From Styela clava (Eukaryota; Chordata; Ascidiacea; Stolidobranchia; Styelidae): a stretch of 64,000 nt of DNA. A program made the translations under genes and the position numbers. Each line of letters begins with the position of its first letter. The stretch's first letter is position 1. Location: contig NC_135255.1 of the NCBI RefSeq assembly GCF_964204865.1, forward strand, positions 15,219,135 through 15,283,134. Reading direction: 5' to 3'. Below, piece by piece: positions 6,591-56,144 of this stretch. A model generated the notes under the pieces. That model had not been told where the DNA came from. It searched no databases and saw only the letters and a list, made by a program, of their open reading frames with translations.

Positions 6591-6622
6591 TTTATAAACG
6601 TTATTATATTATACCTTCAATT

Positions 6623-9600: not shown

Positions 9601-12600
9601 CTATTAAGATGACTTAAATTTGAGTCTTCAATTAAATGATTCTTTCCTAGGCGTAGAGAGGGGGCAATTATTGAGCAATTCTCAGATAACCCGATGTTTT
9701 CCTGGCGTACTTCGCGCTCATACAGCTCGGATAACTATGGCAGCGGAGTAACTTTATGGAGATATTATTCAACACATTGCAAAATAATAGTGACTGCTAT
9801 TTAGAGCAGGGGTGTGCAAAGTGCGACCCGCGGGCCAAATGCGGCCCGCAAGAAAAAATTGTGCGGCCCGCGGAAAAATGCCAATTTTGAAAGGTGCGCG
9901 GCCAGCTAAACTAGTTTTGAAATTTGGTTGAATCTGGTTTCCTTTGCGTTGCAAAGCTTTTATTCAAGTTCAATTTATTATCCATGTCTACGACTTACAG
10001 CGTCCTGACAGCGAGGCGAACAACGCGATTCTCAAAGTTGTCCCTTGCTGAGCAGCAAATAATTTAAGAAAAATGCGGAGCAGACGCTAATGAATTTGTA
10101 AGAACGATTAATTGAAGATTAGGTAACTGGAAAGCAGTTTAAAAAAATTATCAATATATAGATACAAAGGCTAAATGAGTTTTGGTTCCAACCTATCAAT
10201 TGATTTTATTTAAATCTAGTCCAGAATAAGATTTAACAGAAAATTACTTGGAAATGATTCTTACCGAAAACACCAAGATAACTTTCCACATTTTCAAAAA
10301 AGTCATGGCTTCAAATATGCACTTTTCGGTAACATATTTATTTCTAAAATGAGCTATTCTCTACCTGCCACTAATAGAAAGCCTATGTTAAATGACGGTG
10401 CAGCCCGCGGTTTCACTTAGTTATTGGTATTTGGCCCGCTCGCGAAAAAGGTTGCAACACCCCTGATTTAGAGTGTTCGGAGCGAGTAAGCGTCATATTA
10501 CGTCATTTAAATCCCCCCATTTTTTCAAAATTTTGGGCTGACTACCGATCTTGGGCCCTCCTCCTATGCTTTTCTTTGTTGTGCCGTTGCAAGCTATGTG
10601 ATTTGTTCTGTTAATATTCATCATTATAAACTAACCCTATTTCTATCACGATTGTCAGGCACCTTCTTCTGGTAAAGAAAACAAATATCTGTGCTGTCTT
10701 TGCTGTAAAAGTGGACCAATTCAAGGTGAAATTACTACGGACCGAACTGGTTATGTTCCTGGCGAATGGGTCATCGTGAATGTAAAAGTAAATAACAAGA
10801 GGTAAACCCATTTAGAGTGTCTTTTGTTGGTTGAGTACGAAGTTTATTCCTTTCTCTTGTTAGGTTAATAAGTTCAACTGTAACTGTAACTTTACGTTTT
10901 ATCAGCGGAAGCAAGGTGCAGAAAACATCCATTGAAATAATGAAAATCGTCAAATATCGTGCAAAAATGAAGTCAAAAACAGTTAAATACAGCATGCAGC
11001 AAGTATTTGGTTCTCATTGCGACTCAAAAAAATCAACATCTTTTGACAACATTAAAATTCAGATTCCGGCTCTTCCACCAACAGAAAATACACATTGCAA
11101 GATTATCGATATCAACTATGCTGTTATGGTACGTACAAACAAACATTTATGGGTACTCCTGTAGTATGTTAATCAAGATGGCGGACACCGGAACATAGTA
11201 TGTGTACCAGGTTAGGGTCAGGCCATAATTTCAGGTACAAATACTACGGGAAAATACACTTGGCTAGTCCCCGTAATAGAACTGAAATAAGGAAAATTGA
11301 AATAAAATTATGACCTAACCCTAACCTGGTACACATATACGTTACGGTGTCCGCCATCTTGGTTCACATACTACAGGAGTACACATTTATGACATCTACC
11401 TTTTTGTCAAACTCGCGGAGAATAGCGAGTCACAATGCCTATGCCCTACCAGGCGTCTAATTTCAAATTTTTGTCGTATATGTGGTAACTTCGGCATCCT
11501 ACATCAAAATCGTATCCGTTTCATAACGAATGTCGCCTTTCTCCTAGCATGGATACCATTTGGGCTTTCTGTATCTTATGATCGTTTTGCAACCGACTTG
11601 AACTAGGCCTTTGTTCCTAACTGATTCTTCGGTCAGTATTGTATGCGATATTAAAAATGGGAGAGGACTAATGAGTTAGGGTATAGGGTTAAGAGCGAAC
11701 ACTCAGAGGTTTAAATCACAATTCTATTTACTAAGCTGTTCAAGCGAAAAACGGAACACGTATTTTGTTATGCAGATTCATGGGCATTTGCGCTTGTGTG
11801 CAATCGATTTACGTGGTATGGCGCCCATTGTAATTGGTTCTGTTCCAATCCGTAGTCTTCCCATGTATTCTGGTCAACAAGATCCTCAAGTACAGCCTGC
11901 ACCATCCGCATATCCTTCTTTACCTGATTCCTCAGCAACAGTGATAGAAAACACGACAGCAAGTTCATATGCTACTACAACGACTTCAGTTCTGCCTACG
12001 TCATTTGGATTTCAAGGTATATTCGGGACCATTTCTGTCATAATTAGTAATTTTAGTACGGGTTATTCACTAAAAAGAGACACGTGAATTTTACTGCTGT
12101 GTTCCAATAATAGATAATCATTTGATAGGACTCAAAAACGGCGTTGATAGGAAATATTTGCCTTGTCAACAATGCTCCTAATTATATATTATCAATCATC
12201 GAATACCATATTCCGAAATATAGTGGCAAAAACTAATGGGAGAAAGAGGTGTTTTTAGTTTAAAAAAATCCTGTAAATCTAATCACTTAAGTAGAGTCTT
12301 TTGGAGAGCTGCAAAGCACTTTCATTTCAATAACTTCATACCCAACATTTCGGCTCCTCAGAAGTGTATGTATCAATATGGAGGTAACTTAATTTGTTCG
12401 CCTACTTTACATCGAGTTGTGTAAACGTATGGAAGCGTATGGACAGGGGGTATATTCACTTGGCTAACACAGACAGCCCCCAAAATCATGATGGAACTAA
12501 AAAAAGGAAAATCGGAACAAATTAAGGCATAGCCCTAACCTGGTACACATACTAAGGGAGTACCGACATTTCTATTTAATGCATGGAATATAATGCCACT

Positions 12601-13023
12601 TGCTAGAAAAGTAGAAGCTCCCGAAGTATGTGCACCAAAATGGCGCACACCCTGAACAGAGTATGTATAGTTGTATACCATGTCAGGGTTCAGGCTGTGC
12701 GCCATCTTGATGCACATACTTCGGGAGCGCCGAAAAGTGAACGAGAATCTGAGGATTTCTGTATAATAAATCTGAGGATTAACGAGCAATATCAGGAAGA
12801 TCAACTATTATGAATTTGCTTCGATTGTTATTAACATAAAACGTACCGAGTATATCAATTTTGATAATTTCATTGTCTTATAGTTCCTCCTCCCTCTTAC
12901 ATGGATGCGACTGAAGGGAACTTCGACGTTAAAGATGATAAATATACCAGAGGAGACACAACGTATACGCCCAAATATACCTTCTATGACTGGAACCAAA
13001 CAGCTTTTACTTATAATAAATAA
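6623..13023 (+). CDS. Alpha-arrestin (ARRDC2/3/4-like), copy 2, complete
   Basis: Eight coding exons: 6,623-6,740, 8,377-8,499, 8,855-8,944, 9,157-9,284, 10,659-10,801, 10,906-11,128, 11,776-12,016 and 12,884-13,023 (TAA). They join to 401 codons with all phases consistent and GT-AG borders throughout. Arrestin-N covers roughly residues 5-150 (start MPSLQDFNVTFDDNKSIFSP). CCLCC lies at about 165-169, in the same place as the Cys cluster of vertebrate ARRDC3. Arrestin-C runs about 170-310, and PPSY at 358-361 is a likely NEDD4-family WW-domain ligand. The tail contains YTPKYTFYDW. Exon lengths equal those of copy 1 except exons 2, 3 and 7, so the two are a tandem duplicate pair. The likely role is that of an endosomal or plasma-membrane ubiquitination adaptor (family knowledge). 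Introns hold MITEs, a Tc1-like element and a hAT-like element. Confidence 0.93.
6816..7052. repeat. Foldback MITE with perfect 8-bp TSD
   Basis: A 237-bp element with ends GGTACTCCCGTAGTATGTG and CACATACTACGGGAGTACC, the best-preserved termini in the window. It is flanked by CTGGTTTC on both sides (6,808-6,815 and 7,053-7,060) and lies in intron 1 of alpha-arrestin copy 2. Confidence 0.92.
7544..8261. mobile_element. Tc1/mariner-like non-autonomous element
   Basis: A 718-bp segment in intron 1 of copy 2. It starts TACCGTATTTCTCCGTGTAT and ends TATACGCGAAGCAATACGGTA, which are inverted repeats beginning CCGTATT and flanked by TA. A second, inner array of GTGCGTATTATAC motifs lies near both ends. 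No transposase is recognised; the 97-codon open frame at 7,607-7,900 is not similar to one. The TA target suggests the superfamily, but the assignment is tentative. Confidence 0.65.
9471..9580. repeat. Short palindromic MITE with perfect 8-bp TSD
   Basis: A 110-bp near-palindrome with ends GGACCTCCTGAAG and CTTCAGGAGGTCC, bracketed by ATTTATTG on each side (9,463-9,470 and 9,581-9,588). The arms contain CACCAAGATGGCGC. It lies in intron 4 of alpha-arrestin copy 2. Confidence 0.92.
9807..10465. mobile_element. hAT-like non-autonomous element (GCGGCCCGCGGGCC type)
   Basis: A 659-bp element with ends CAGGGGTGTGCAAAG and GTTGCAACACCCCTG. It has a perfect 8-bp TSD, ATTTAGAG (9,799-9,806 and 10,466-10,473). 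Just inside are GACCCGCGGGCCAAATGCGG and related GGCCCG stretches, as in Charlie-type hAT MITEs of other animals. No transposase is present. It lies in intron 4 of copy 2. Confidence 0.92.
11152..11383. repeat. Foldback MITE with 8-bp TSD
   Basis: A 232-bp member of the GGTACTCCCG family with ends GGTACTCCTG and CAGGAGTACA. It is flanked by CATTTATG (11,144-11,151 and 11,384-11,391) and lies in intron 6 of alpha-arrestin copy 2. Confidence 0.9.
12352..12564. repeat. MITE variant with a replaced 5' arm
   Basis: Element of about 213 bp in intron 7 of copy 2. The left end is GGCTCCTCAG followed by ATCAATATGGAGGTAAC; the right end is the usual TGGTACACATACTAAGGGAG. Flanks AACATTTC and GACATTTC match at 7 of 8 bases. 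Sisters of this variant are at 20,183 and 45,662. Confidence 0.75.
12614..12731. repeat. Short palindromic MITE, GGCGCTCCCG subfamily
   Basis: A 118-bp near-palindrome with ends GAAGCTCCCG and CGGGAGCGCC, flanked by GAAAAGTA and GAAAAGTG (7/8 match). It lies in intron 7 of alpha-arrestin copy 2, about 50 bp from the preceding MITE. Confidence 0.8.
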
Positions 13024-15278: not shown

Positions 15279-15763
15279 TAACAGTTTTTTGCCTCAAATG
15301 CATTAGCATTGTTTGCAGTGTATGAGAATATTGAATGAATGACTAACATCAAATTTAATACTTTCTCTCCGCAAAAGAATCGGGTTTCACTAACTACTCA
15401 TCAAATCATATTCTTTGAAAATCGCATTTGAATATTGTAATTGATATTTAAGAATACCTTGTAAGATTTGCATAGTTATTTAGGTCGCTGGCGGAAGTAT
15501 GTATCATTTAAATATCCAAATGAGTAGAAAAATTTGCATTCATTTCGATTAATATAAGGCAATGTTGAGTGTTGGGAAAGGCACTCCCAAGATACAGTTT
15601 CTAGTAGAAATAACTATTAGAAATAGTTTTCTCGAATTTATTGAAATCTCCATGTGGGCCTTTTGATGTGAGTGATATATATATAGGTAGTGTAAGTAAG
15701 AAGAAATATTTCTTTTTATACAGTGTAAACTTGTAGATAAAAAAGTTTTAACAGTCGTTCAAA

Positions 15764-17071
15764 ATGAATCTGGTTGCAATCGCATGTTTGGTTGTAATAT
15801 TGGCCTCTTCAGGTGAGTAAATAAATCCTTTGGAATATTCAAATATTGATCCAAATTATAAAAAAGAATCGAAATTTTAAAATATCTTCACAAATTTTCT
15901 TGCCTGTCAGAAAATTCTAAAATACAAAAATTAAAGTATGTTTTTATATCCGATGTTTTTCTAATAGTATCAGCTAAATAAATACCTGAAATATTGTGCT
16001 TATTAGCACTGATCACCAAGTAGTTTTGCCCCCTCGTAAATTGCATTAGTTACAATTTCCATAAACAGGTAAACTTTCTTATGTCAATTAGGCCATGGAA
16101 TACGGTGTTACGTATGCACCAATTGCAACGAAGCCAAACAGCTAAATGGTACTCAGCTTCAAAATTGCCCGGATTCCCTACCAGCTTGCTACAAAGTGTT
16201 TGCAAACGGTAAGCTATTCACGAATATTCCAAATAAAATGGAAATAGTCAGCACAGTTAACATTTATTTAAAATATATAATTGTACACGAAGCCATTTTA
16301 AATATTTAAACAAAGTTTCTTATATGATCCATGATGTGCTTTTGATTTGGGCAATGATAACTTCAATTGCCCTAAATACCAGAACATATATATCTTGACA
16401 GTTATAGCTGAAGTAGACGACCAGTTGGGTCAATAAACCAAAACCATCTGGCATTATCACTAATTTAAAACATTTAAGGTGATGTGACGAGGTCGTGTAT
16501 TAGCGGCAATCTCGATGTTGGCTGTAAAACGGAAAATCAGATTGAAGCATGTGTGTGCAAAAAAGGTAAAATTGATTTGTGATATTTTAAGCAAATGAAT
16601 GCAAACGATATACAGAAGGTGGGAAATAGTTCTTCTTCTTCATAAATTTATGGTGAATTAAATACGTAGCTTCTTCGAGCACAACAATTTTTCGTTTTAC
16701 GAACGATAGCAAGATATTTTTTAAAACAAGAGAATAATGCTCAAATAAATAGACACGAAGTTCTAATGTCCACGTCAAAGATCCTAATTTCGGGTAAACA
16801 TACCTTATTTTAATGAAACTAGTCATTGACCACGTGTTGCCAAATTTACTCAGCGGGACATTAATTTGGTCCATGCTGGCACATTAAATGAAATAAAATA
16901 GATTTTTCGTGCGGTATCAGGCCGCATGGTGCTCAGAGAAAAAAATAAAAGTAATAGTCATCTGGCGATTTATTTATTCCAGATGAATGCAACGGGACTG
17001 GAACTGTCAAATCTACCGCCATATTTGGATTCGTCATCAGTTTCCTCGTCGCAAAGTTTAACATTATATAG
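15764..17071 (+). CDS. Ly6/uPAR-type GPI-anchored-like protein, copy A
   Basis: Four exons: 15,764-15,812, 16,092-16,208, 16,479-16,565 and 16,983-17,071 (TAG). All junctions are phase 1, giving 113 aa. Residues 1-17 form a hydrophobic signal peptide (MNLVAIACLVVILASSG). The mature part has ten cysteines (22, 25, 28, 42, 49, 62, 71, 80, 82, 87), starts CYVC and ends with the CN pair at 87-88 typical of Ly6/uPAR three-finger domains. NGT sequons lie at 35 and 88. Residues 96-110 are hydrophobic and end the protein, as in a GPI-attachment signal. It is probably an extracellular, membrane-anchored protein; ligand and role are unknown. It is near identical to copy B at 26,800. The family call rests on the cysteine pattern, not on a database match. 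Confidence 0.85.
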
Positions 17072-17658
17072 GGTGGTATAGAATGCAGAGTAAACGCCAA
17101 TTTTTGATTTCAAGCCTGGGTATTTGGACATTTGTTCGAATTTTAATATTACTTTATAAAATAATGAATAGAATAGAAAAATATATAAAAGTTTGGCAAA
17201 ACATGACTTCAGAATCTTCCCGTCAACTCAATGTTAAATATTGATAGTTCAATAAAACTTTTGACAACTTTTTGAAATTCCGAAACTTAAAATAGGTTAA
17301 TAACCAAAATAGCAGTTACAGCTTACAGATAAATCTCTTTTTTATAATCGATGTATAACCAAATCGATGTTTTCGTAAATTTTAGTGTGTTATATAAAAC
17401 TATTATTGTTATTTTTACTTCGTGCTGGAGTTATGTTCATAGGTGAGGAACAACCTATGATGGAGCTTTGACGAAACCATGGAAACGAAACCAGAAAAAA
17501 TGCTGTTTCGTAATGATATATAATATAAAAGTTGACAGTTTTCAGAATATTACTTGTTTTATTACTGTAGTTAATGTTAAAATTTCATTTCAGTTGATAT
17601 GATTGACTATAGTCCTTAATTGCATTGTACTCATGACGTCATATTTTATGATTAAAAA

Positions 17659-17664
17659 AATAAA
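17659..17664 (+). terminator. Candidate poly(A) signal, Ly6-like copy A
   Basis: AATAAA followed by CTGTTTCAATGTCGAGTTG and a T-rich stretch. The motif and its context are conserved in copy B at 29,052-29,057. An alternative AATAAA at 17,251 is not kept in copy B. Confidence 0.5.
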
Positions 17665-18201
17665 CTGTTTCAATGTCGAGTTGTTTTATTAATTTGGTAA
17701 CTGAAAATGAATAGACTGAGTGCGAATGAAACTAAAAGAAAAAATCGAGGGAATCTTACAGTCAGTACAACATCAGGTTACTCTAAAAATAAACCGAGAA
17801 AGACCCTTAAATAATTTTCCAACTAGGAAATCTATGTTATCTTTAGTTCGTACAATTACACGAGGATGTTAAGCAAGTGTCCTCAAGATACAAATAGGAA
17901 TACACAAATAGTCTAAACTTAGTTTTTCCAATTTACGACCATGATTTACGACAATTCCACGCAACGATGTGTCTGATGTTAAAATATATATATTCTTTAA
18001 TTATTCTAAGAGAAAGAATATACACGGCACTCAATTTATTTACGGCCAACCTAACCATTGGCTAGATTCTGGTAAACGCTGGTATATTCAGCCAAGAAGA
18101 AGAACGCAGTACACCCGACACAACAAACAAATAACTAGAACAGCATTTTCATACCCGAAGCGGGTATCAGTACAAGGCAATAAATATCTTCTTGGTTCCA
18201 T

Positions 18202-18417: not shown

Positions 18418-19425
18418 AGGGGTCACCAACCTTTTCGAGGCCGAGCGCTATTTTCTAGGTACAGATTAGGTAAGCCGCGGGCTACCAATTCAATGTACAC
18501 TTCTAAAAAGTCGCGGCTGTGTGGCCATCGTTAGTGTGCTAAGCGTTAGGTTCGCAGATTAGAATCCCATGCGAGGATAGTTATGTGCGAGAGAATTGCT
18601 GGACCCCTTGCCGCCGTTGGGATGGCTTCCTTCGCCATCAAGTCCATGCTCACGAAAACAAATAACTAACTAATCCCAAACCCGATATGAAATGGTAACC
18701 GGACGAGAGGCCATATGGTTTAGCCATCTTATCGGCTATCTTCTCCCCCGGGATAAATATGTAAATCCCATCCTATTCTGAGTTTATGTCAAAAATGTTG
18801 ATTCACAAAGATAAGTTGAACGAAACAATGGTCTCGTAAAATAGAATTGCTGTGTGATTTGAATCGCTAGCTTTTTTGATTGTAATGCGCTGACCAGTGG
18901 ATAGTTAGCGCGGTGGATTGCGTGACAAGCCGTGAAATATCTTTTCGCTTTGCCGTCACTACAATCGCCCCACAAATGAGACACGCGCAGGCTGTTTTCA
19001 TGGTGGTAAATATATATCCACCATCCCCATTCATCGTGAAAATGGTGGGTTTTTCATCGTTTTTCTGCCATTTTTCTTTGGAATCAATAATTATATTATT
19101 GCTGCTCCACAAATCAACGGACAAGAAAAAGCGCGGGTTCGTGGTAAGTGATATCAGTGTGATGTCATAATTGGAAAAATATTAATTGACCCGTCACATT
19201 ACTGAGGTCAAATAAAAATCAGGTTGATGGCTACAATAAATAATGTAGTGCCATTCCCGATTCCCATATAAGTGTGAATTATACAAGAATAGCAAGACAA
19301 AATTTAATTGATGTAGCTCAATCATAAGCGCCGTTATTAAGCTTAGTTTGGAACAGACCTGCGGGCGACTCATATGGTCGTCACGGGCGACTTGGTGCCC
19401 GCGGGCAACGAGTTGGTGATCCCTG
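18418..19425. mobile_element. hAT-like non-autonomous element with perfect TSD, SINE inside
   Basis: About 1.0 kb with inverted ends (GTCACCAACC near the left, GTTGGTGATCCCTG at the right) and a perfect 8-bp TSD TTCTAGTA (18,410-18,417 and 19,426-19,433). The right part has GGCGACTTGGTGCCCGCGGG. It interrupts copy A of the segmental duplication. A SINE lies inside at 18,513-18,778. No transposase is seen. Confidence 0.88.
18513..18778 (+). repeat. tRNA-derived SINE nested in a hAT-like element
   Basis: Plus-strand SINE with a shortened tRNA-like head (GCTAAGCGTTAGG, then AGATTAGAATCCCATGCGAG) and the body CCATCAAGTCCATGC, GGTAACCGGACGAGAGGCC and CCCCCGGGATAAATATGTAA. Confidence 0.8.
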
Positions 19426-20395: not shown

Positions 20396-20407
20396 GCTTT
20401 AGGATGA

Positions 20408-20622
20408 TTCACGTAAGCGCTGCCCGCTGGTTAGTTACGGCTTCCCCCGCCATCAAGTCCATGCATCTGAAAAAAATAAAAATAAATAACTGGCTAACTA
20501 ATCCCATACCCGACAATGCGACATGGGCTGGTAATCGGACGAGAGGCCGTGGTTCGTCATATGATCAAGCCGTCTTATCTACTTTCCTCTCATCTGGGAT
20601 AAATATATATGTAAATCCTATT
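20408..20622 (+). repeat. tRNA-derived SINE, 5'-truncated
   Basis: Lacks the tRNA-like head. Shares CATCAAGTCCATGC, CTAACTAATCCCATACCCGA, GGACGAGAGGCCGTGGTTCG and the TATGTAAATCCTATTC tail with the other SINEs. Confidence 0.75.
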
Positions 20623-20810
20623 CATTCGTTTTGTATTGGAGAAAGAAAATGTAAGTGAAGTTCTCTGCAAAGTTACATAGTGGTTTGTTGATGCCCTTGT
20701 CACAGTCACTAATTTCAGAATTTGTTTTAAACGAAAAGTCTTGAAGTTGAGCGGTATTCCGGTATCGTGCCTGTTGTACATCTCTTCATTCAGTTATTTA
20801 CGTGTTACAG

Positions 20811-20881
20811 AGTTTGACGGCTTGATAATGGGGAAGCTAACGAAGTTTAAAATCGACTTAGTTGATGATAAGGATATATAT
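20811..20881 (+). pseudogene. Broken alpha-arrestin exon 1, left half
   Basis: After TTACAG (acceptor-like, ending 20,810) the sequence AGTTTGACGG is followed by ATGGGGAAGCTAACGAAGTT, matching exon 1 of alpha-arrestin copy 3 (35,575-35,709) closely. The match stops at GATAAGGATATATAT, where a minus-strand LTR element begins. The right half resumes at 26,003. The sequence upstream (TTTCAGAATTTGTTTTAAAC) also matches the 5' flank of copy 3, so this is a duplicated gene 5' end. Confidence 0.88.
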
Positions 20882-21270
20882 TATAGGGCAACAAAGATTC
20901 GACCCTATCTGCGTGTCCACACTCCCGTGTTATTGAACACACGTTAACAGAGTGTAACTCCGATCTTGACTCCTTCAGAGGTCAAAAAGCACACAATGTA
21001 TTGAATGCCAATTGTTATATTGTAAAGTTGCACAATCGAATTGATCCAAATAACGAATTACACTTGAAACCTTAAAGCAAGTATATGTGATGAAACCAAA
21101 TTTCTAACTAACAAAGAACGGCAAAGACAAGCTACACTGAGCGAGAAAAATATATCATAAAGGAAATGAATTGGGACAACGACCTTGTTTCAGGCAAATA
21201 GCATGCACTACTAACAGTAAGTGGTAAAAATATTAAAATACACAGTAACTATCCTTATGTACTTGCTGCA
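20882..21270 (-). repeat. LTR (3' LTR in element orientation)
   Basis: Begins TATAGGGCAACAAAG and ends GTACTTGCTGCA on the plus strand. Nearly identical to 25,614-26,002. Next to it, on the inner side, is CAATTCCCCCCG, a polypurine tract on the minus strand. Confidence 0.88.
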
Positions 21271-21796
21271 CAATTCCCCCCGACAATGAAAAAAATTAGT
21301 TTGCTTATTTTTAAATTTTGTAAGACTAGCTAATAACGATTTCTGATTGAATAATATGTCGTAAAATTTGCCATGTATTGGTGTATTTAATTCTGCATCA
21401 AAGTCGCTGATGACCAACTAATGCAACGACACAGGAAAACCAATTTGATTGAGATACCTCCGGTTGAAGGATCTTTTGCGGTGAAATCTACAGATTTTCA
21501 CGAAATCTTCGATAACACCCAGAACTAAGCCATTGCGTTTGGACAATCGACTTCTTTCTGTTTTGTAAAATAATGAGCGTAATAGTTGATTTGAAGAATA
21601 TTGTTGACGTTAAGATTTCGTTCGTTGAAAACATTCCTCTAAGCTTTGAAAACCTGTCCAACTCTCGGATTTTTCAATCTGGGAAGATTGTCCGATGAAT
21701 TGAGATGTAACAAGAGTGTGGTAGCGTTGAATTTCGGAGAGTCGACGGCCGTGCAAACTTTCGTATCATAAACGTTCCAGACAAATGTAAACGCAC

Positions 21797-22035
21797 TGTT
21801 GTATATTATATGATGTAATACCGCTAGGTGACGCTATTGACCCAGACTGATTTGACCTTGTATATCCGAGGCTGTCATTCATTTTCTATCTGTGCACGTG
21901 TTAAGTGCTGACTTGCTGTTTAGTCTGTTACTGCTATGGTGTCTTAATGTTGAAGTGCTCGACTCTTATAATAAAGTAGTGTTGTAATGGAAACTTGTGC
22001 TTGTTTATAAAGATCTAAAGGCAGAATACACTACA
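21797..22035 (+). repeat. 5' LTR of the Gypsy element
   Basis: 239 bp, TGTTGTATAT...ACACTACA. Contains TTATAATAAAGTAG, which may supply the poly(A) signal. It has a 19-bp stretch that LTR2 lacks. Confidence 0.92.
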
Positions 22036-22056
22036 ATTTGGCGATGAGGATGGGAT
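22036..22056 (+). promoter_or_regulatory. Primer-binding site of the Gypsy element
   Basis: ATTTGGCGATGAGGATGGG directly follows the 5' LTR. TGGCGAnGAGGAT is a common minus-strand priming site layout in Ty3/Gypsy elements. The matching tRNA was not determined. Confidence 0.7.
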
Positions 22057-22252
22057 TGGTCTGCTGCCGTATAGCGTTAACTGTTACAATGGGATCGGTC
22101 TGCTGCATGCCGGTGTCACAGTAAGTGTTTCAAGTCAACGTTATTACAAGTACCTGAAAAGAAGAGTCTGAAATATAGGCAGATGAAATTGTCTTTATAG
22201 ACTGAAATTTATGAGCCTGAAATTCCATAGCTGAAAAATTACTATACCTGAA

Positions 22253-23719
22253 ATGACTACTTTTGGAAAAATAGAAGAGTATGGTAATGGCCAAGATTGG
22301 TTTGAATATGTTGAACGCTTAGGACATTTTTTTGAAGCAAACGAGATTGAAAGTGCTGATAAAAAGAAAGCCATATTATTAAGCGTTTGCGGGGCTCAAA
22401 CATACAGTTTGATCAGAAACTTATGTGCTCCTGAAAAGCCTGGTGAAAAAACTTATGTCCAGCTGAAAGAACTTGTGAAAAAGCATCTCAACCCCAAACC
22501 ATTGGTGATAGCAGAAAGAGTCAAATTTCATGAAAGAATCCAACATGATGGAGAAAAGGTGAATGAGTTCCTGGCACAGCTCAGGAAATTATCTGAACAT
22601 TGTCAATTCGGTGAGTTCTTAAATGATTCACTAAGAGATAGATTTGTGAGTGGACTAATGTCAACTCGAATGAAACGTAAATTATTAACTGAAGTTGACC
22701 TAACTCTGCAGAATGCTGTGAAAATTGCTACTGGTATGGAATTGGCAGAAAAACAAGCCAATGAAATAAGTTGCAAATTTGGAAAATTGCCAGTAGATGA
22801 AAGTAAACCAAAAGTTCATAAAGTTCAAAATAATCAAAGATTTGCAACGCGTTCTGAAATTCGAAAATTCAAAGAATGTTTTCGATGTGGGAAAAGTAAC
22901 CATCCTGCTGAAAGCTGTTTCTACAGAAATGCAAAGTGCCATAAATGTAAACGAATTGGGCATATAAGTCGAAAATGCTCAATGCAACGTAACTTCTATC
23001 GAGGTTCCAATCCTCTGAAAAGTAAAAAGTCTTCGAATTGTGACTACATGCAACCTACGAATGATGATAACCTATCTTCGGACTGTTCTCAAAATGAAAT
23101 GTGTCCTGTATTTACTACTAAGTCTAGTTCTTATGGTCCAATAGTAGTTCCACTGAGAATCGAAAAATGTGATTGTAAATTTGAATTAGATACTGGTAGT
23201 GGGGTGTCACTCATTTCTGAAAGCATGTATGAAAAGAATTTTAAACATTTGCCCTTGCTGAAATCTAATGTTGTATTGACAACTTATACTGGTGAAAATA
23301 TTACTGTCTTAGGTAAAGTGAATGCTACTGTTGAATATGAGTCGCAGTGTGTAAATTTACCTTTGCAAATTGTTCGTGGCAATGGTCCATTACTATTGGG
23401 TAGAAATTGGTTATCCCAATTGCAATTGAATTGGCATCGTATTTGTCATATTGGTTCCAAGCTCACGCTTGAGAATATTTTGAAAAAGTACCCTGTTTTT
23501 GATAATTCCCTTGGTACTATAAAAGGTATAACTGCTAAACTAAGGGTGAAAGAGAGTGCCATTCCGAAATTCTACAAGCCACGTCCTGTTCCTTTTGCTC
23601 TTCGTGATAAAATTTCGGATGAGCTGAAAAGACTAGTAAATATGGGGGTCCTGAAAAAAGTTGAAAGTTCTGATTGGGCTTCACCCATTGTTCCAGTATT
23701 GAAAGGCCTGAATTGTTGA
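22253..23719 (+). CDS. Gypsy Gag-protease-partial reverse transcriptase
   Basis: Open frame of 488 aa. Residues 1-200 are a Gag capsid-like region (WFEYVERLGHFFEAN). Two CCHC zinc knuckles span residues 209-222 (CFRCGKSNHPAESC) and 229-242. An aspartic protease active site, DTGS, is at 313-316, and LLGRNWL lies near 381-387. The N-terminal motif of reverse transcriptase (KPRPVPFALRDKISDELKRL, 442-461; SSDWASPIVPVLK) ends abruptly at about residue 484. Beyond that the sequence is joined to a distant part of pol and stops. It makes structural and protease parts only; the YxDD catalytic part of RT is absent. The start was chosen as the first ATG after the 5' leader, matching Mag-like Gags. Confidence 0.93.
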   Translation: MTTFGKIEEYGNGQDWFEYVERLGHFFEANEIESADKKKAILLSVCGAQTYSLIRNLCAPEKPGEKTYVQLKELVKKHLNPKPLVIAERVKFHERIQHDGEKVNEFLAQLRKLSEHCQFGEFLNDSLRDRFVSGLMSTRMKRKLLTEVDLTLQNAVKIATGMELAEKQANEISCKFGKLPVDESKPKVHKVQNNQRFATRSEIRKFKECFRCGKSNHPAESCFYRNAKCHKCKRIGHISRKCSMQRNFYRGSNPLKSKKSSNCDYMQPTNDDNLSSDCSQNEMCPVFTTKSSSYGPIVVPLRIEKCDCKFELDTGSGVSLISESMYEKNFKHLPLLKSNVVLTTYTGENITVLGKVNATVEYESQCVNLPLQIVRGNGPLLLGRNWLSQLQLNWHRICHIGSKLTLENILKKYPVFDNSLGTIKGITAKLRVKESAIPKFYKPRPVPFALRDKISDELKRLVNMGVLKKVESSDWASPIVPVLKGLNC

Positions 23720-24540
23720 GAATGCCTTCAACTACTTCTGAAAAGACTGTTGATGCATTGAGATATTTATTTTCGAAATATGGACTACCTGAAATTTTGG
23801 TAAGTGAATGCTCCTAACCTGTCATCGAAAGAGTTTAGAGATTTTATGATACGAAATGGAATTAAGCAAATCTTCTCAAGTCCGTATCATCCGTCCTCTA
23901 ATGGTGAGGCTGAAAGAAATGTGCGTACCTTCAAAACTGCACTGAAAACTTTAAAGAAATTACCTGGAACACTGAATCAGAAGTTGGCATCGTTCTTGTT
24001 AACTTATCGAACAACGCCACATTCTACAACGAAATGTACTCCAGCTGAATTATTCATGAAAAGAAGACTGAGAACAAGATTAGATTTAATGAAACCTAAT
24101 TTGAGTAATTCGATGCAGAAAAGAACAACTCCAGTGCAAAAGCCTATTAGAAATTTGGAAGTTGGAAATCGTGTTCAAGTTCGTGATTATAGAGATCCAA
24201 ACCGAAAATGGATTCATGGAATAATCGTAAAGAAGTTGAGTCCTGTAACCTATCGTGTGAAAGTTGGTTCAATGATCTGGAAAAGACATATTGATCAAAT
24301 ATTGGACATGTCTAAAGTGAAATTAGAGAAATCATATGATAGTAGTTTGGATGATGACGTTTCATTGCCTTCTGTGTTTCCAAATACTGATGTAATTGAT
24401 CTAATGTTGATATCCCTAGTGCTAATGAAAATTTGCCTGTTAATCCTAATGTTAGTACTGAAAGTGAAACCCAGTGCCCCGATGAAATTTCACGTTATCC
24501 GAAACGTCTTAGGGTTAAGCCTGAGCGGTTGATTGAAACA
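23720..24540 (+). pseudogene. Gypsy integrase remnant (C-terminal half)
   Basis: Integrase core fragments begin near 23,722. A small deletion close to 23,807 breaks the frame at the second catalytic aspartate position. An open frame of 242 codons (23,804-24,532) carries the end of the core, including SPYHPSSNGEAERNVRTFK with the catalytic glutamate, then the C-terminal domain (VGNRVQVRDYRDPNRKWIHG). Near the end the original frame is lost again, since the last residues read better in another frame. The N-terminal zinc-binding (HHCC) domain and first catalytic aspartate are missing. Non-functional. Confidence 0.88.
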
Positions 24541-24575
24541 ATGTAAATGAAATGTAATGACATTCTCATTTTTTT

Positions 24576-24590
24576 GAAGGGGGGAAAAAG
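24576..24590 (+). other. Polypurine tract of the Gypsy element
   Basis: GAAGGGGGGAAAAAG directly before the 3' LTR, the expected plus-strand primer position. Confidence 0.88.
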
Positions 24591-24811
24591 TGTTGTATAT
24601 TATATGATGTAATACCGCTAGGTGACGCTATTGACCCAGACTGAGGCTGTCATTCTTTTTCTATCTGTGCACGTGTTAAGTGATGACTTGCTGTTTAGTC
24701 TGTTACTGCTATGGTGTCTTAATGTTGAAGTGCTCGACTCTTATAATAAAGTAGTGTTGTAATGGAAACTTGGTGCTTGTTTATAAAGATCTAAAGGCAG
24801 AATACACTACA
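24591..24811 (+). repeat. 3' LTR of the Gypsy element
   Basis: 221 bp. Relative to the 5' LTR it lacks a 19-bp stretch (ATTTGACCTTGTATATCCG in the 5' LTR), has one extra G near the end and differs by a few substitutions, as judged by eye. Confidence 0.92.
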
Positions 24812-24816
24812 CGCAC

Positions 24817-25613
24817 CTTTCCGGCAAAACCCGGAATTGGGTGAGCATTGGCTTAAATCAGCTAGGGGAGATTGAAGTTTTCGTGTTATGTGATTGAAGT
24901 AGAGAGGACCCTTCCACGCGGGCCACGAGTATTTGGGTTCGACTTGGTTTCTAAAGATGCTGCAATAGATGATGATCGACTTGAGAAAAATAAATTAGAT
25001 GTTCGTTCGTACGTTCGTCAAACAGTAGGTCGCTAAATGCTGCTTCTTGGTGTAAAAAAATCGGCTTGCGTATAATATCAATTTTTTTTTTCTACGTAGC
25101 TTGCTTTGTCGATAAACACATTTGAAAATCCAGTAATAATACGAAGTTGTCCTGGTAACTTTTAATTGTAATGAGGCGGATCGATCTGCTGAAGTCCATA
25201 TCTCTTGATCCGGTTGACACACAAAACATATAGTTGTAATATATAGGTTGATAATGAGACACAAATTCAAAGAATTTGGGCGTTGATGCTTGGAAAATAA
25301 AAATACACGAGCGTGAACTCGGGCGTTAAACTTGAAGAGTTGAAGTTGAGTTAGTGCTGTCTGATCGTAGGAGGTCCTGGTCCAGATTCCTCGTTTTGAG
25401 TCAAAAATCTACCTTGTTCTGGCCTTCTTGACTGCTTAATAAATTGACATACCGCCAAAGACTGCAGTTTGGTTGGTTGCTTGATTCCTGAAATGCTGAC
25501 GTATTGTCCTTTGACTCGGTTAGTGATGAATTTCTTTTCCATTTTGATTGACGAAATTCCAGTTGCTGAATTGAAGTTGATTGCTTATTGATCACGAACG
25601 GCTATCACCAAAA
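24817..25613 (-). other. Interior of the minus-strand LTR element
   Basis: About 0.8 kb between the Gypsy 3' end and the other LTR. On the minus strand a 63-codon open frame (25,351-25,542, MEKKFITNRVKGQYVSISG) starts about 70 bp after the LTR, where a Gag would start, but the protein is not recognised. A second overlapping frame is at 25,401-25,595. No zinc knuckle, protease or RT motif was seen. Confidence 0.5.
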
Positions 25614-26002
25614 TATAGGGCAACAAAGATTCGACCCTATCTGCGTGTCCACACTCCCGTGTTATTGAACACACGTTAACAGAGTGTAACTCCGATCTTG
25701 ACTCCTTCAGAGGTCAAAAAGCACACAATGTATTGAATGCCAATTGTTATATTGTAAAGTTGCACAATCGAATTGATCCAAATAACGAATTACACTTGAA
25801 ACCTTAAAGCAAGTATATGTGATGAAACCAAATTTCTAACTAACAAAGAACGGCAAAGACAAGCTACACTGAGCGAGAAAAATATATCATAAAGGAAATG
25901 AATTGGGACAACGACCTTGTTTCAGGCAAATAACATGCACTACTAACAATAAGTGGTGAAAATATTAAAATACACAGTAACTATCCTTATGTACTTGCTA
26001 CA
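25614..26002 (-). repeat. LTR (5' LTR in element orientation)
   Basis: 389 bp, nearly identical to 20,882-21,270. Its right end, GTACTTGCTACA, abuts the TSD ATAT and then resumed arrestin exon sequence. Confidence 0.88.
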
Positions 26003-26240
26003 ATATCATTCGGGAAAAGAAGTTGTCGGTGGAGTGAAAATCAAATTATCAGAGGCAAATGAAAGATACCGGTGATAATTATTTGTGGTTTTGATGCACC
26101 CAAAGTGCTGACGTGATAAACATGTTAACTACAGGAACTAACGATATCGCAAAGTTCGATAGTTGGTTACTGCATTCCTACATTTGCTGAATTGACAAAA
26201 CTTGTTGTGTCACTAACTGACTTGTGTTTTTATATTCGGT
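26003..26240 (+). pseudogene. Broken alpha-arrestin exon 1, right half, plus intron 1 start
   Basis: ATCATTCGGGAAAAGAAGTT continues the exon interrupted at 20,881 and matches 35,647-35,709. The end is damaged: a few bases are missing from the last codons, and the donor GT reads AT (GAAAG|ATACC). The sequence that follows, TTTTGATGCACCCAA and TTTGCTGAATTGACAAAAC, matches the start of intron 1 of alpha-arrestin copy 3 (35,730-35,830). No later exon follows; the next gene is Ly6-like copy B. Confidence 0.85.
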
Positions 26241-26670
26241 GCATAAGGCGTGAGTAAGGGTCGTATTACGTCATATAAAAAGTAACAGTAATTTTGCTGT
26301 AAATGCATTTGTATTGTTTGCAATGTATGACTCAGAATGGTGAACACCAAACTTAGTACTCACCCCGCCAAAAGAATCAGTTTTCACGAACTACTCATCA
26401 AATCATTTTCGTTGAAAATCACATTTGAATATTGTGAGTAATATTTAGCAATGCTTTGCAAGATATGCAGAATTATTTTTGTCTCTGACAAAAGTATGTA
26501 TCATATAATACCCAAATGAGTAGAAAAATATGCATACATTTCGATTAATATAAGGCAATGTTGAGTGTTGGGAATGGCACTCCCAAGATACAGTTTCTAG
26601 TGGAAATAACTATTAGAGTTAGTTTTCTCGAATTTATTGAAATCTCCATGTGGGCCTTTTGATGTTAGTG

Positions 26671-26720
26671 ATATATATATATATGTATACGTATATATAT
26701 ATACATAGGTTAATATATAT
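26671..26720. repeat. AT-dinucleotide and palindromic microsatellite
   Basis: GATATATATATATATGTATA, then CGTATATATATATACATAGG. The equivalent place in copy A (about 15,675) has only a short TATATATATAGG. It lies 80-130 bp upstream of the copy B start codon. Confidence 0.8.
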
Positions 26721-26799
26721 AGGTAGTGTAAGTAAGAAGAAATATTTCTTTTTATACAGTGTAAACTTGTAGATAAAAAAGTTTTAACAGTCGTTCAAA

Positions 26800-28215
26800 A
26801 TGAATCTGGTTGCAATCGCATGTTTGGTTGTAATATTGGCCTCTTCAGGTGAGTAAATAAATCTTTTGTAATATTCAAATATTGATCCAAATTATAAAAA
26901 AAGAATTAAAATTTCAAAATATCTTCACAAATCTTCTTGCCTGTCAGAAAATTCTAAAATACAAAAATTAAAGTATGTTTTTATATCCGATGTTTTTCTA
27001 ATAGTATCAGCTAAATAAATACCTGAAATATTGTGCTTATTAGCACTGATCACCAAGTAGTTTTGCTCCCTCGTAAATTGCATTAGTTACAATTTCCGTA
27101 AACAGGTAAACTTTCTTATGTCAATTAGGCCATGGAATACGGTGTTACATGTGCATCAATTGCGACGAAGCCAAACAGCTAAATGGTACTCAGCTTCAAA
27201 ACTGCCCGGATGCCCTAACAGCTTGCTACAAAGTGTTTGCAAACGGTAAGTTACTCACGAATATTCCAAATAAAATGGAAATGGTCAGTACAGTTAACAT
27301 TTATTTAAAATATATAATAGTACACAAAGCCATTTTAAATATTTAAACAAAGTTTCTTATATGATCCATGATGTGCTTTTGATTTGGGCAATGATAACTT
27401 CAATTGCCCTAAATACCGGAACAAATATTTTGACAGTTACAGCTGAAGTAGACGACCAGTTGGGTCAATAAACCAAAACCATCTGGCATTATCACTAATT
27501 TAAAAACATTTTAGGTCATGTAATCAGATCGTGTGGTATCGGCACTCTCGAGGTTGGCTGTAAAACCGAATATCAGATTGAAGCATGTGTGTGCAAAAAA
27601 GGTAAAAATTGATTTTATGATATTTTAAGCAAATGAATGCAAACGATATACAGAAGGTGAGAAATAGTTCTTCTTCTTCATAAATTTATGATGAATTAAA
27701 CACGTAGCTTCTCCGAGCACAAAAGTTTTCCGTTTTACGAACGATCGCAAGATATTTTTTAAAACAAGAGAATAATGCTCAAATAAATAGACACGAAGTT
27801 CTAATGTCCACGTCAAAGATCTTAATTTCGGCTGAACATACCCTATTTTTAATGAAACTAGTCATTGACCACGTGATGCCAAATTTACTCAGTGAAACAT
27901 TTATTAGGTCATTAATGAAATAAAATAAATTTTTCGAGCGGTATCAGACCGCATGGTGCTCAGAGAAAAAATAAAAGTAATATTCTTCTGGCGACTACTT
28001 CCCTCTTTGCGTAATTAAAATTGAAAATTATTCCATAGCGATGGTGACGTTGCAAGGTGAAAGAAACTTAGTTTAATTTAGAAATAGTGAAAAAAGCTAA
28101 AATAATATATTTATTCATTCTAGATGCATGCAACGGGGCTGGAACTGTCAAATCTACCGCCCTATTTGGATTCGTCATCAGTCTCTTCGTCGCAAAGTTT
28201 ATTAACATTATATAG
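26800..28215 (+). CDS. Ly6/uPAR-type GPI-anchored-like protein, copy B
   Basis: Four exons: 26,800-26,848, 27,129-27,245, 27,515-27,601 and 28,124-28,215 (TAG), all phase-1 junctions, 114 aa. The signal peptide is identical to copy A. All ten mature cysteines, the CN pair and the hydrophobic C-terminal tail are kept. Changes fall mainly in the loops, for example YVCTNCN to YMCINCD and SCISGNLDVGC to SCGIGTLEVGC, with one extra residue near the end. The reading frame is intact, so both copies are probably active. Expected location is the outer cell surface through a GPI anchor; partner unknown. TTTAACAG lies 11 bases before the ATG in both copies and could be a splice or spliced-leader acceptor. 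Confidence 0.85.
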
Positions 28216-29051
28216 GGTGGAAGAGTGCACGTATTTTTTTCTATTACACTAATCGCCATTTTTTTTTAATTTAATATTACTATTTACAATGGATAGGTGT
28301 AATAGAAAAATATCAAAAATTTGGCAAAACATGACTTCAAGATATTTCCCATCAACATCATGTTAAATATTGATAATTCAATCAAACTTTTGGCAAGTTT
28401 TCAAAAATTCCGCAGATTGGCGATGCTGAAACCAAATTTTGTGAAACTTAAAATCTTGTCTAAATATATCACATGATCGATCAAAAAATTCTGAAAAGGG
28501 CGATTTTTATTAATAAACTATAAATTTGAAATTGCTGATAGTATGTTATATATAATGCCCAAACCTGCTTTCTCGTATGTACTCATATAGTTCGACTCGA
28601 AAATGACCTTAAAACAAAACTGTTGGCATAATTCTTCATCATGCAATAATTATAATTGTTTAATTCCAGATATTGTCAGGTTTGTAATCAAAATGGCAGT
28701 TACAGCTTACAGATAAATCTCTTTCTTGTAATCGATGTATAACCAAATCAATGTTTTCGTAAATTTTAGTGTTTTAAATAAAACTATTATTGTTATTTTT
28801 ACTTCGTGCTGGAGTTATGTTCCTAGGTGATAAACAACCTATGATGGAGCTTTGACGAAACCAAGGAAACGAAACCGGAAAAAATGCTGTTTTGTAATGA
28901 TATATAGTATGAGAGTTGACAGTTTTCAGAATATTACTTTTTTTATTACTGTAGTTAATGTTAAAATTTCATTTCAGTTGATGTGATTGACAAAGGGTAC
29001 TATTGTCCTTAATTGCATTGTACTTATGACGTCATATTTTATGATTTGAAA

Positions 29052-29057
29052 AATAAA
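29052..29057 (+). terminator. Candidate poly(A) signal, Ly6-like copy B
   Basis: AATAAA followed by CTGTTTCAATGTCGATTTG, in the same place as in copy A (17,659). Confidence 0.5.
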
Positions 29058-29702
29058 CTGTTTCAATGTCGATTTGTTTTATTAATTTGGTAACCGAAAA
29101 TGAACAGGATGGGTGGTGCAAATGAAACTAACAGAAAAATCGAGAGGATTTTACAGTCAGTACAACATCAGGTTACCCAAAACATAAAACGGAAAATGAC
29201 CCTAAAATAATAAATACCTCATCTTTATTTCGTACAATTACCCAAAGACGTTAAGCGGGTGTCTTCAAAATACAAATAGTAACACACAAGTAGTTTAAAG
29301 CTAAACTTAGTCTTTTTAATTTAACAAACCACATAAGGTGTGTCTGATGGTGATATATTCCTTAACTATTCTTAAAGCAAGAATATACATAGATATGTTC
29401 AGCCGAGAAAAAAAACGCAGTGCACCCGGCACAACAAACAGATAACTAAAACATATATTTTATAACAGACACAGGTAATAGTACAAGACAATACATAACT
29501 TCTGGCAGGACCATACCAAAAATAAACTAACTCCCTTACGCGCGGCACATCGTGGTTGTTGTGCAAAGCTAATTTGGAATACCTGGAGCATTGATCCCAG
29601 TTTTGCCTAAAGCGGTCCCGTCATTATTATACTACAGCCAGGTACAAAAGATTTCTGACTAACTATATGACTGGCTAACTAGTCCCATACCCGACCCACA
29701 AG

Positions 29703-29886
29703 ATTCACGTTACCGCTGGTCGGTTACTGTTTCCTCCACCATCAATTCCATGCATCTGAATTTTTTTTAATAAATGGCAAACTAATCCCTTAACCGACAT
29801 GTACCGAACGAAGGGTCGTGGTTTGCCATATGATTAAGCCATCTTATCGGCTGTTCTCCGGGATAAATATGCAAATCCTATCCTAT
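29703..29886 (+). repeat. tRNA-derived SINE, 5'-truncated
   Basis: TTCACGTTACCGCTGGTCGG, CACCATCAATTCCATGCATC, TTTGCCATATGATTAAGCC and CGGGATAAATATGCAAATCC match the SINE body. The tRNA-like head is missing. Confidence 0.75.
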
Positions 29887-29951
29887 ACATTGACGGGGCC
29901 ATTGGCATTCGTCTTGGATTGCAGGAAGCAAATGTCAACAAAGGTCTATGC

Positions 29952-30451: not shown

Positions 30452-30867
30452 AAACTTATCTGGTTCGCGATGTTTGCTCATGGTCTACAATGGAACGTAC
30501 CATGGCCCGAAGGGGATCGGGGGGACAAGTTTATTTGAAAACCGCCGGGAGTTTATTGTATGGCCATTGATAATAAATAAACGAACAGAAGGAAAAAAAT
30601 GTTCAATAACAACATTAACAACAACATAATAACAATAGGATTCATCTGGATATTTTGTGTCCAATAACCAAGTTTTGTATTCAATGTATAATCACCGTCA
30701 CACACGTTGAATTTTGTTTAACTCAGGATGGATCGCCATTGGGATGGATATTCGTGAGGTGCATCTAACACTGACATGGGAACTACGGCCCGCGGGCCAA
30801 ATCCGTTCCGTTGGGCAATTCAATCTGACCCGCATGATGATGTCATAATCATCATTACGTTTTGCAG
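30452..30867. other. Repeat-derived DNA with a hAT-type fragment
   Basis: No gene. Around 30,772-30,845 ACGGCCCGCGGGCCAAATCC resembles the left end of the hAT-like element at 38,532. GTGTCCAATAACCAAGTTTT near 30,658 resembles 15,270-15,290, so this may be a third, decayed piece of the Ly6-flank duplication. Confidence 0.5.
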
Positions 30868-30966
30868 AGTTTGACGTTTTGATAATGGCAGAATGGGGAA
30901 GTTAACCAAATTCAAAATCAACTTGATGATAAGGATATATATCATTCGCAAGAAGTTTTTGAGAAA
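30868..30966 (+). pseudogene. Second broken alpha-arrestin exon 1
   Basis: TTTGCAG, then AGTTTGACG, and further GGGGAAGTTAACCAAATTCA match exon 1 of alpha-arrestin copy 3. Small insertions and deletions disturb the frame, and similarity fades after CATTCGCAAGAAG. No other exon lies near. It comes from a duplicated gene 5' end, like 20,811. Confidence 0.8.
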
Positions 30967-32303: not shown

Positions 32304-32476
32304 ATGGTTCACGTTACCGTTGGTCTGTTACCGCTTTCTCCATCAGCAAGTCCATGCATCTGAAAAAAAATGGATAACTATCCGGTTCGGACGAGAGGTC
32401 ATGGTTCGCCATATGATTAAACCATCCTATCGACTTTTTCTTCCTGTGGGATAAATATGTAAGTTTCATCCTATAT
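32304..32476 (+). repeat. tRNA-derived SINE, 5'-truncated
   Basis: GGTTCACGTTACCGTTGGTC, AGCAAGTCCATGCATCTG, GTTCGCCATATGATTAAACC and GGGATAAATATGTAAG match the SINE body. Just before it CATTGATGTCAGCTTTGCCC matches the Ly6-flank duplications near 19,520 and 29,595. Confidence 0.7.
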
Positions 32477-34272: not shown

Positions 34273-34622
34273 TTCGGCGGTGTGGCTCAACGGGCTAAGC
34301 GTTAGGAATACGCTCGCCACCGCACCTCTAATTACTCTGCGTGGGTTCGCAGGTTCGAATCCCATGCAGGGATGGTTATGTGCGAGAGGATTGCTGCTGG
34401 ACTCCTCGGCGTCGTTTAGTGGTTCACGTAACCGCTGGTCAGTTACGGCTTCCTCCACCACCAAGTCCATGCTTCCGAAAACAAACAATACAGTATAACT
34501 AATCCCATACCCGACTTGGAATGGTAACCGGACAAGAGGCCGTGGTTCGTCATATGGATAAGCCGTCTTATCGGCTTTCTTCTCCCCCGGGATGAATATG
34601 TAAATCCTATCCTGTCCTATCC
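34273..34622 (+). repeat. tRNA-derived SINE, full-length reference copy
   Basis: The head GTGTGGCTCAACGGGCTAAG is an A-box-like stretch and GCAGGTTCGAATCCCATGC a B-box, as in tRNA-derived RNA polymerase III promoters. The body contains TAACCGCTGGTCAGTTACGG and ATGGTAACCGGAC, then CCCCCGGGATGAATATGTAA, and it ends in a short TCCTATCC-type tail. About eight other copies occur in the window. The head does not fold as an intact tRNA and has an extended D-arm to T-arm spacing, so it is not a tRNA gene. Confidence 0.85.
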
Positions 34623-35574
34623 TAATTTAGAACCCCAAAAATTTATTTATATACTCAGGCTATGCTAAATCGGTGCATAGAAGTTTTTTATTCATCTCCT
34701 CTCCAAGGTATTCAAATTTCAGAAGAATATGTTCCGCAATATCGTTATTCTTTCAATAAAATATGATTTTAATATTGCCATAAATCATTAAAAAACCTCA
34801 CAGAGAAATGACTTCATATTAGATTTCCTACAGGTTAGGAAGGTCACGTTTTAACCTTAAACTGCATGGCTACTCTGCAGTAAAATACAGGTTCAGTGCT
34901 GGGTAACGTACGGGTACCGCTGCTGTTCCGCGTGGCAACCATTCTAAATTGACAAGCAGTAAGGTAATATCTATTTTATCAACCATATAAATTTGTCAAA
35001 CCCTTTTCGGATCCATCAGAATAAATATGAAAACTCCATTCCGTAGCTCTCTCTTATGATAACGGAAAAGCGCGGCGACAACGCTAGCGCTCTCCATCTC
35101 CGTGGAAAGTCCACAGCATACCTAAACTACTACCGGTACTAGATAGTGTAGGACTATAGGTGACGACGTAAAAGTACCGGTACGGTGCTTGTCATCTTGT
35201 TGTTATTTGAAATATATGGTTGATGCCCTTTCACAGTCCATGCAGTCACTAATTTCAGAAGTTGTTTAAACGAAAAGTCTCAAAGTTGAGTTTAACCTAT
35301 TTGTACTGGTATTGGGTGAGTAAACACGTACCTACCACTTCGACTTCCTCTTTGCAAAACCTTCCATCATATATTTTGTACGTCATCTAAGGTTTCGTTT
35401 TCTCCCCTGATTTCATAATCCAGTAATCAGTTCTTATTTATTTGTTTTTATCTGTCAAATGTATTGTTATGCTGATTATGAAGTCCAAATAAATTTATAC
35501 TTATTCCGTTACGGTACCGGTACCTGGTGTGCGCCCCTGGCTCCTCCATTACGGTACGTCTGTACGTGTTGCAG
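34623..35574. other. 5' flank of alpha-arrestin copy 3
   Basis: No coding sequence. TTTCAGAAGTTGTTTAAAC at 35,260 is shared with the duplicated 5' ends upstream. Many TACCGGTAC/ACGGTACCGG motifs occur, at 34,910-34,925, 35,130-35,185 and 35,510-35,550. TGTTGCAG ends at 35,574, 17 bases before the ATG, and is kept in both broken copies; it may be a splice or spliced-leader acceptor. Confidence 0.5.
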
Positions 35575-35591
35575 AGTTTGACGACTTCATG

Positions 35592-55488: not shown

Positions 55489-56144
55489 TCGAATATATAT
55501 ATTTGGAATCTACAAGCGAGATTGTTCACTACTAAACTACTGGGAATATATACAAGGTATGTGTTGCAACTTTCTCTCGTGTTATTTTCTCTTTCGTGAT
55601 GTTGAAATCAATCCGACCTTGAAGGTCAAATACTTTTGAAGGTCGAATACATTGAATTGTGTTTTGTTGTCTGAAGTTTACAAGTAAAATGTTTTCAAGT
55701 TTTGATAATATCTCAAGCTTTACTTATACGAGAAAAAGGAGAATTTCAACCGATCAAAAGCATTCTGCGTCTTGGTCGGCGCTGACTTGCAAAATATTAG
55801 TCGGCTTAGTTGCATAAGATTGCTAAAGTTTTAAAATATCGAATAACATACTTAGCGTTGACTTTAAAAATATTTTGAGAATTTGGCAGCGAGTTGTTGC
55901 ACAGTTGACTAAATAGATCTAGACATACGACAGGGGACTACTGTTTCTGTTTCGCTTTCAATTTCTAACCGTCCGCCATTTTCTTTTTAGGACTCTCTGC
56001 TCAGATATATTGTACAAGAAATATTTGGATTTAATCATCAAGCAAAGTGAATCAAAGCTACAACAACGAGAAGGGGAAAGCAAGAAACGAGTTATTTATT
56101 CTTGATAGACTGAACTTTCAGCGCAATCGTTCAATACCGACATT

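Follow-up and report, generated by a model that had tools for sequence, protein, structure and literature searches.

Two nested LTR elements in a duplicated arrestin first exon of Styela clava

In one arrestin gene cluster of the ascidian Styela clava, a copy of an alpha-arrestin first exon is broken by LTR-element sequence and resumes on its far side. This raises the question of what was duplicated, what was inserted, and in which order. We analysed a 64-kb window around the break (C6:15219135-15283134; genome of 376.6 Mb in 379 contigs), and positions below are those of the window unless a region is named.

An interrupted first exon in an arrestin cluster

The window contains three arrestin genes in tandem (A, B and C) and two relics of a first coding exon.

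Window start to about 4277: exons of arrestin gene A, which is partly in the window
6620-6742: probable first exon of arrestin gene B
8379-13011: other exons of gene B
20687-20751, plus strand: 5' flank of the interrupted exon relic, homologous to 35219-35290 (82% over 73 columns)
20799-20881, plus strand: left portion of the interrupted relic (first coding exon, ATG at 20828), matching 35563-35644 at 90.2% over 82 bases
26007-26223, plus strand: right portion of the interrupted relic with the beginning of the intron, homologous to gene C up to 35850
30855-30955, plus strand: another relic of this first exon, with 4 bp deleted and its 3' half decayed
35589-35709, plus strand: intact first coding exon of gene C
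36496-36618, 37631-37729, 38322-38454, 39471-39620 and 40140-40362, plus strand: remaining exons of gene C
From about 40711, and another ending about 41669, plus strand: last two exons of gene C, placed by their resemblance to genes A and B

Gene C is an alpha-arrestin. Joining its first six exons gives an open frame of 283 codons, Pfam reports both Arrestin_N (115.6 bits) and Arrestin_C (90.6 bits), and the solved structures that match it include TXNIP and ARRDC3. Gene C resembles these alpha-arrestins in both domains and in its structure matches, whereas the interrupted copy is a first-exon fragment: its homology is to the first exon only, without the Arrestin_N and Arrestin_C pair.

The relic matches gene C at 35219-35290 and 35563-35850, and the copied region covers ~0.7 kb of gene C (20687-20881 plus 26007-26223 in the relic). 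When the host flanks are joined at 20881/26007, they give one HSP to gene C of 183 bp (84.7% identity, 196 bits), compared to 113 bits for the left flank and 87 bits for the right flank unjoined. This is also the best ungapped join, with 99 of 110 positions matching, and is tied by 20880/26006. The first-pass annotation had placed the cut directly after GATATATAT and proposed that removal of the inserted DNA restores a continuous match to 35592-35700; the cut is exactly there, and the restored match is wider than proposed. The joined codons read MGKLTKFKIDLVDDKDIYHSGKEVVGGVKIKLSEA in the relic and MGKLTKFKIHLVDDKDIYHSGEEVVGEVKIKLSEA in gene C. At the exon end, the splice donor AAAG/GTAAG of gene C is replaced by AAAGATACC, so the donor is lost, and the relic frame terminates at two stops.

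When 20811-20884 was used as a DNA query against the 376.6-Mb genome, in a search that scores the best candidates only (three of three were scored), three places were returned (20811, 35575 and 30868), all in the window. The last of these belongs to the relic at 30855-30955, which is more decayed than the one at 20799-20881. Using gene C frames of 22 aa or longer as queries, we found no later arrestin exon beside the relic on either strand between gene B and gene C (~13-35.5 kb, E 0.01). The first-pass annotation spoke of a duplicated alpha-arrestin gene. A copy of the first-exon region is indeed present, but as far as can be seen the duplicated unit appears to be a fragment of the gene and not the whole.

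Across 35 codons, relic and gene C are separated by nine changes, 6 of them synonymous and 3 non-synonymous (dS 0.346, dN 0.037). When nine changes were placed neutrally 5000 times, 0.54% of placements were free of stops and kept non-synonymous changes this low (P = 0.0054), a value that reflects nine changes only and to which selection on the gene C branch contributes; a stop was present in 34% of placements. This codon pattern hints at a period in which the relic was more than a dead fragment.

The outer element, its family and the inner Ty3/Gypsy element

The sequence between the two parts of the relic resolves into one LTR element inside another.

20878-20881: left ATAT target duplication of the outer element
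20882-21270, minus strand: 3' LTR of the outer element, 389 bp, four transitions from the other LTR
21271-21796, minus strand: 3' internal part of the outer element, with a six-C run on the plus strand at 21276-21281
21792-21796: left CGCAC target duplication of the inner element, single in uninterrupted copies
21797-22035, plus strand: 5' LTR of the inner Ty3/Gypsy element
22235-23719, plus strand: 494-aa open frame of the inner element (gag with zinc knuckle, protease, start of RT)
23804-24532, plus strand: integrase remnant of the inner element (rve_3, below cut-off)
24591-24811, plus strand: 3' LTR of the inner element, with a 19-bp deletion
24812-24816: right CGCAC target duplication of the inner element
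24817-25613, minus strand: 5' internal part of the outer element, with primer-site-like TTTTGGTGATA adjoining the LTR
25614-26002, minus strand: 5' LTR of the outer element, beginning TGTAGC and ending CCTATA in its own sense
26003-26006: right ATAT target duplication of the outer element

Both elements agree with what had been proposed, namely a minus-strand LTR element with 389-bp LTRs and an ATAT duplication (20878-20881/26003-26006) and, inside it, a plus-strand Gypsy element with a CGCAC duplication (21792-21796/24812-24816), for which an LTR pair was also found. The outer element extends over 20882-26002 and is 2.1 kb long without the Gypsy (2101 bp after removing the Gypsy and one CGCAC). 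Its LTRs, 389 bp each, are 98.97% identical, with four transitions and no gap. In the element's own sense, the six-C run is a polypurine run (GGGGGG before the 3' LTR), and the TGG-containing sequence directly after the 5' LTR is a putative primer site. Uninterrupted genomic copies match 21273-21796 at 93.7-98.7%.

The outer LTR family is abundant, with 449 first-look candidates, of which the best 40 were scored and 42 matches listed. Our sample consisted of 20 regions around copies of the outer LTR, ten of which hold both internal halves. The test for target duplications took in 15 of these regions (leaving out L052, L053, L060, L062 and L064), and perfect 4-bp duplications were found in 13 of the 15 copies: all seven complete copies and six of eight LTR-only copies. 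The other two LTR-only copies had no target duplication. Complete copies are 2099-2111 bp long in six of seven cases and 1774 bp in the remaining one, and their LTR pairs carry 0, 1, 1, 5, 0, 2 and 0 substitutions. The family is young. Two of the seven, L046 and L047 (C9, ~10 kb apart), have the same flanks and GTAC duplication and are 99.9% identical over 3201 bp; they are one insertion, later duplicated, either as a very recent duplication or as an assembly duplicate.

Empty sites for the Gypsy element are found within this family. In eight of the ten copies that hold both internal halves, the halves abut exactly at a single CGCAC, with the junction AAACGCAC/CTTTCC and no Gypsy. Since L046 and L047 are one insertion, this is an exact empty site in seven independent copies. 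The other two copies (L051 and L064) also lack the Gypsy; they are a more diverged variant of the outer element, with ~31 bases diverged at the junction.

Some copies depart from the usual form. Of the outer or solo LTR ends caught by our search pattern, 19 of 20 start with TGT; the 3' LTR in the window starts with TGC, alone among six 3' LTRs, the five others starting with TGT. Two outer LTRs lie in tandem, five bases apart, at L053:1530-2259, and two abut in opposite orientation at L052:3540-4211. At L063:2400-2787, an outer LTR without duplication is followed by TTTTGGTGA, as in full elements, and then by unrelated sequence.

The longest frame of L045, an uninterrupted outer copy, is 202 aa long, and Pfam finds nothing in it at E 0.01. 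L048 carries a frame of about this length in the corresponding place, and the two differ by 1 synonymous and 17 non-synonymous codons and two gaps. Among nine other outer copies, the shared frame has a stop in six and gaps in all nine. A protein-coding frame of ~200 aa was rejected due to the mostly non-synonymous changes, the gaps and stops and the lack of a Pfam match, and the similarity of L045 and L048 looks like descent, not selection. For the distant copies, changes in this frame number 21 synonymous and 33 not for L064, and 19 and 29 for L051; these counts do not clearly suggest constraint either.

Since no coding domain was recognised (Pfam on the longest frame of L045), the outer element looks non-autonomous. 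Beside L063 and L059, the two LTRs without duplication, no autonomous partner was found in a search that rests on the best 40 of 449 outer-LTR candidates and is not exhaustive. The longest frame listed for these two regions is 145 aa. No second LTR was found within about 9 kb of L063 or in L065 and L066, the regions that extend L063 and L059. With paired LTRs, a short target duplication and no replication proteins of its own recognised in the one longest frame scanned, the outer element has the features of a non-autonomous LTR retrotransposon (TRIM/LARD-like). TRIMs are well under 1 kb or so in total length, and we do not file the outer element as a TRIM in the strict sense because it is 2.1 kb long. 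Its LTR size and 4-bp duplication also suggested a retrozyme, an LTR element with a hammerhead ribozyme in the LTR. This origin was rejected because the Rfam matches up to E 1 across window positions 15000-36500 included no hammerhead; the only hits there were two weak ones to mir-3149, both at a single place and under the gathering score.

The inner element (21797-24811, plus strand, 3.0 kb) is a Ty3/Gypsy element. Such elements have LTRs with a 4-6 bp target duplication and encode protease, RT, RNase H and then integrase; the copy in the window has a 5-bp duplication (CGCAC). Its LTRs are 90.8% identical over 240 columns, gaps included. The 19-bp gap of its 3' LTR is absent from seven other LTRs (six copies) aligned with it, and a different 23-bp gap is common to five of the seven. 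Pfam matches to the zinc knuckle, protease and integrase were all below curated cut-offs. RT, RNase H and early integrase sequence is largely deleted ahead of the integrase remnant, with the deletion junction near 23702-23705, and compared to a longer relative ~1.5 kb of pol is missing. LTR pairs of the same family elsewhere in the genome span about 4.4-4.7 kb (from coordinates; best 40 of 54 candidates scored). A piece of the longer relative, L075, contains RT and RNase H above the Pfam cut-off, with Ty3 RT as the best solved-structure matches. Of the domains typical of Ty3/Gypsy (Metaviridae), the zinc knuckle and remnants of protease and integrase were seen in the window copy (all below cut-off) and RT and RNase H in L075; the window copy differs from a full member of the group in lacking much of pol. 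Because so much of pol is missing, the inner element looks non-autonomous. A copy on C19 is of near-equal length (2996 bp); a shared deleted lineage with it was rejected, since the breakpoints differ.

Order of events and alternative explanations

Because the Gypsy is nested in the outer element, the order of the two insertions can be read directly. Dating both LTR pairs had been suggested as a check, and it does not order the insertions: the outer pair differs at 4 of 389 sites (0.0028-0.0263) and the inner pair at 2 of 219 (0.0011-0.0330), which are not separable (Fisher P = 1.0). The pairs are of the same age within error, so the nesting order is not confirmed by LTR dates on their own. The exon copy differs from gene C at 21 of 209 aligned non-coding sites, making it ~tenfold more diverged than the outer LTR pair, and this indicates that the exon duplication predates both insertions. 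The sequence of duplication, minus-strand LTR element and plus-strand Gypsy is supported by the nesting, by both target duplications, by empty sites at both levels and by the greater divergence of the duplication. The order given in the first-pass annotation stands, with an exon region in place of the duplicated gene.

We propose, with high confidence for the explanation as a whole, that a fragment duplication was followed by insertion of the outer LTR element and then of the Gypsy. The segment that was duplicated within the tandem arrestin cluster, ~0.7 kb in length, took in the first coding exon together with 5' flank sequence and the beginning of intron 1; since flank and intron sequence is included, we infer a segmental duplication at the DNA level. 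The 2.1-kb LTR element, without a recognised coding domain and presumably mobilised by proteins of another element, then inserted in minus-strand orientation directly after GATATATAT and duplicated ATAT. The Ty3/Gypsy element followed on the plus strand within the outer element, duplicating CGCAC. Divergence shows that both elements are recent relative to the exon duplication. An empty allele of the locus would read GATATATATCATTCGGG. Most likely, the insertion had no effect on the intact gene C, which starts 9.6 kb downstream.

The fragment part of this explanation has one competitor, which bears on that part only. The exon copy could be all that is left of a complete arrestin gene duplicate, its other exons having been deleted or replaced when a 3-kb segment was copied from 15279-18192 to 26283-29503. 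The copied segment starts at 26283, shortly past the end of relic homology near 26223, the relic codons look constrained, and three arrestin genes (A, B and C) stand in tandem here, the first of them partly in the window. However, the search from about 13 to 35.5 kb found no later arrestin exons, and the second first-exon relic (30855) is solitary as well, which suggests repeated copying of fragments. We consider a whole-gene origin possible but unlikely. It is improbable that gene C used the copy as an alternative first exon, with a 15-kb splice to 36496, until the LTR insertion silenced it: the 5' flank and first-exon codons are conserved, but the present-day copy has lost its donor and its frame ends in stops. 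That the relic was working in this way until recently, and was silenced by the outer element, seems to us a shade less probable again; if true, this lineage recently lost a promoter or isoform through the insertion.

The remaining alternatives concern the insertions themselves. Insertion of the LTR element before the duplication, with later loss from the other copy, is extremely unlikely. We found no point in its favour, it requires a precise loss, the outer LTRs differ about ten times less than the exon copies, and no LTR scar is seen in gene C at about 35644. Furthermore, in the only such case seen, the duplicated insertion on C9, both copies retain the element. It is very unlikely, though slightly less so, that the structure is an assembly artefact or a haplotype pair placed in tandem. 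No result favours this, the ATAT and CGCAC duplications are both intact, the inner junction agrees with other genomic copies, and beyond ~0.7 kb the exon regions share no collinear match except dispersed repeats. Fragment duplication followed by two nested insertions remains our preferred explanation.

Comparison with known systems and other repeats in the window

PbTRIM of the red harvester ant is described in its report as the first TRIM family outside plants (PMC3532108). It is a small non-autonomous LTR element with many young copies and solo LTRs, inserted in or near genes, with 4-bp duplications of which ATAT is the most common (PMC3532108). Compared with that description, the outer element is likewise from an animal, looks non-autonomous and has a 4-bp duplication (ATAT here), young copies and LTR-only copies; it differs in its 2.1-kb length and 389-bp LTRs, which make it larger than TRIMs. 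REANNOTATE automates the ordering of nested insertions and the dating of LTR pairs (PMC2672092). The present case is similar in taking order from nesting level and age from LTR pairs, but the lowest level is a duplicated exon and not a repeat. The locus records three steps cleanly, and for both insertions an empty site can be read from the same genome. It also reveals an LTR family of this animal that is young and abundant, makes a 4-bp duplication and has no recognised coding domain. The locus is a clean yet ordinary case of genome turnover that leaves general views unchanged.

Other duplications and repeats were observed in the window. The ~3-kb segment at 15279-18192 and 26283-29503 is 89% identical over the first 1.7 kb and 77-83% beyond. 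It includes a cysteine-containing frame at 27110-27343 without a Pfam match, perhaps part of a small secreted-protein gene. A dispersed repeat of roughly 160-340 bp occurs in both orientations in nine copies about 69-87% alike.

1690-2021, 5690-5893, 18549-18779, 20398-20627 and 29704-29887: dispersed repeat copies
32305-32475, 34275-34616, 36784-37113 and 38998-39189: dispersed repeat copies, continued

Near-palindromic units of ~110-240 bp lie at 2313-2546, 3253-3488, 6816-7052, 11149-11386, 9471-9580 and 12617-12728, three of the six with perfect 8-bp flanking repeats (GTAAAGAT, CTGGTTTC and ATTTATTG). With these flanking repeats they resemble hairpin-type MITEs. Those at 3253 and 11149 occupy the same intron in gene A and in gene B. 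Beyond the arrestin cluster, a forkhead gene with an HNF3 C-terminal domain, which we take to be FoxA, is found at 56109-57845.
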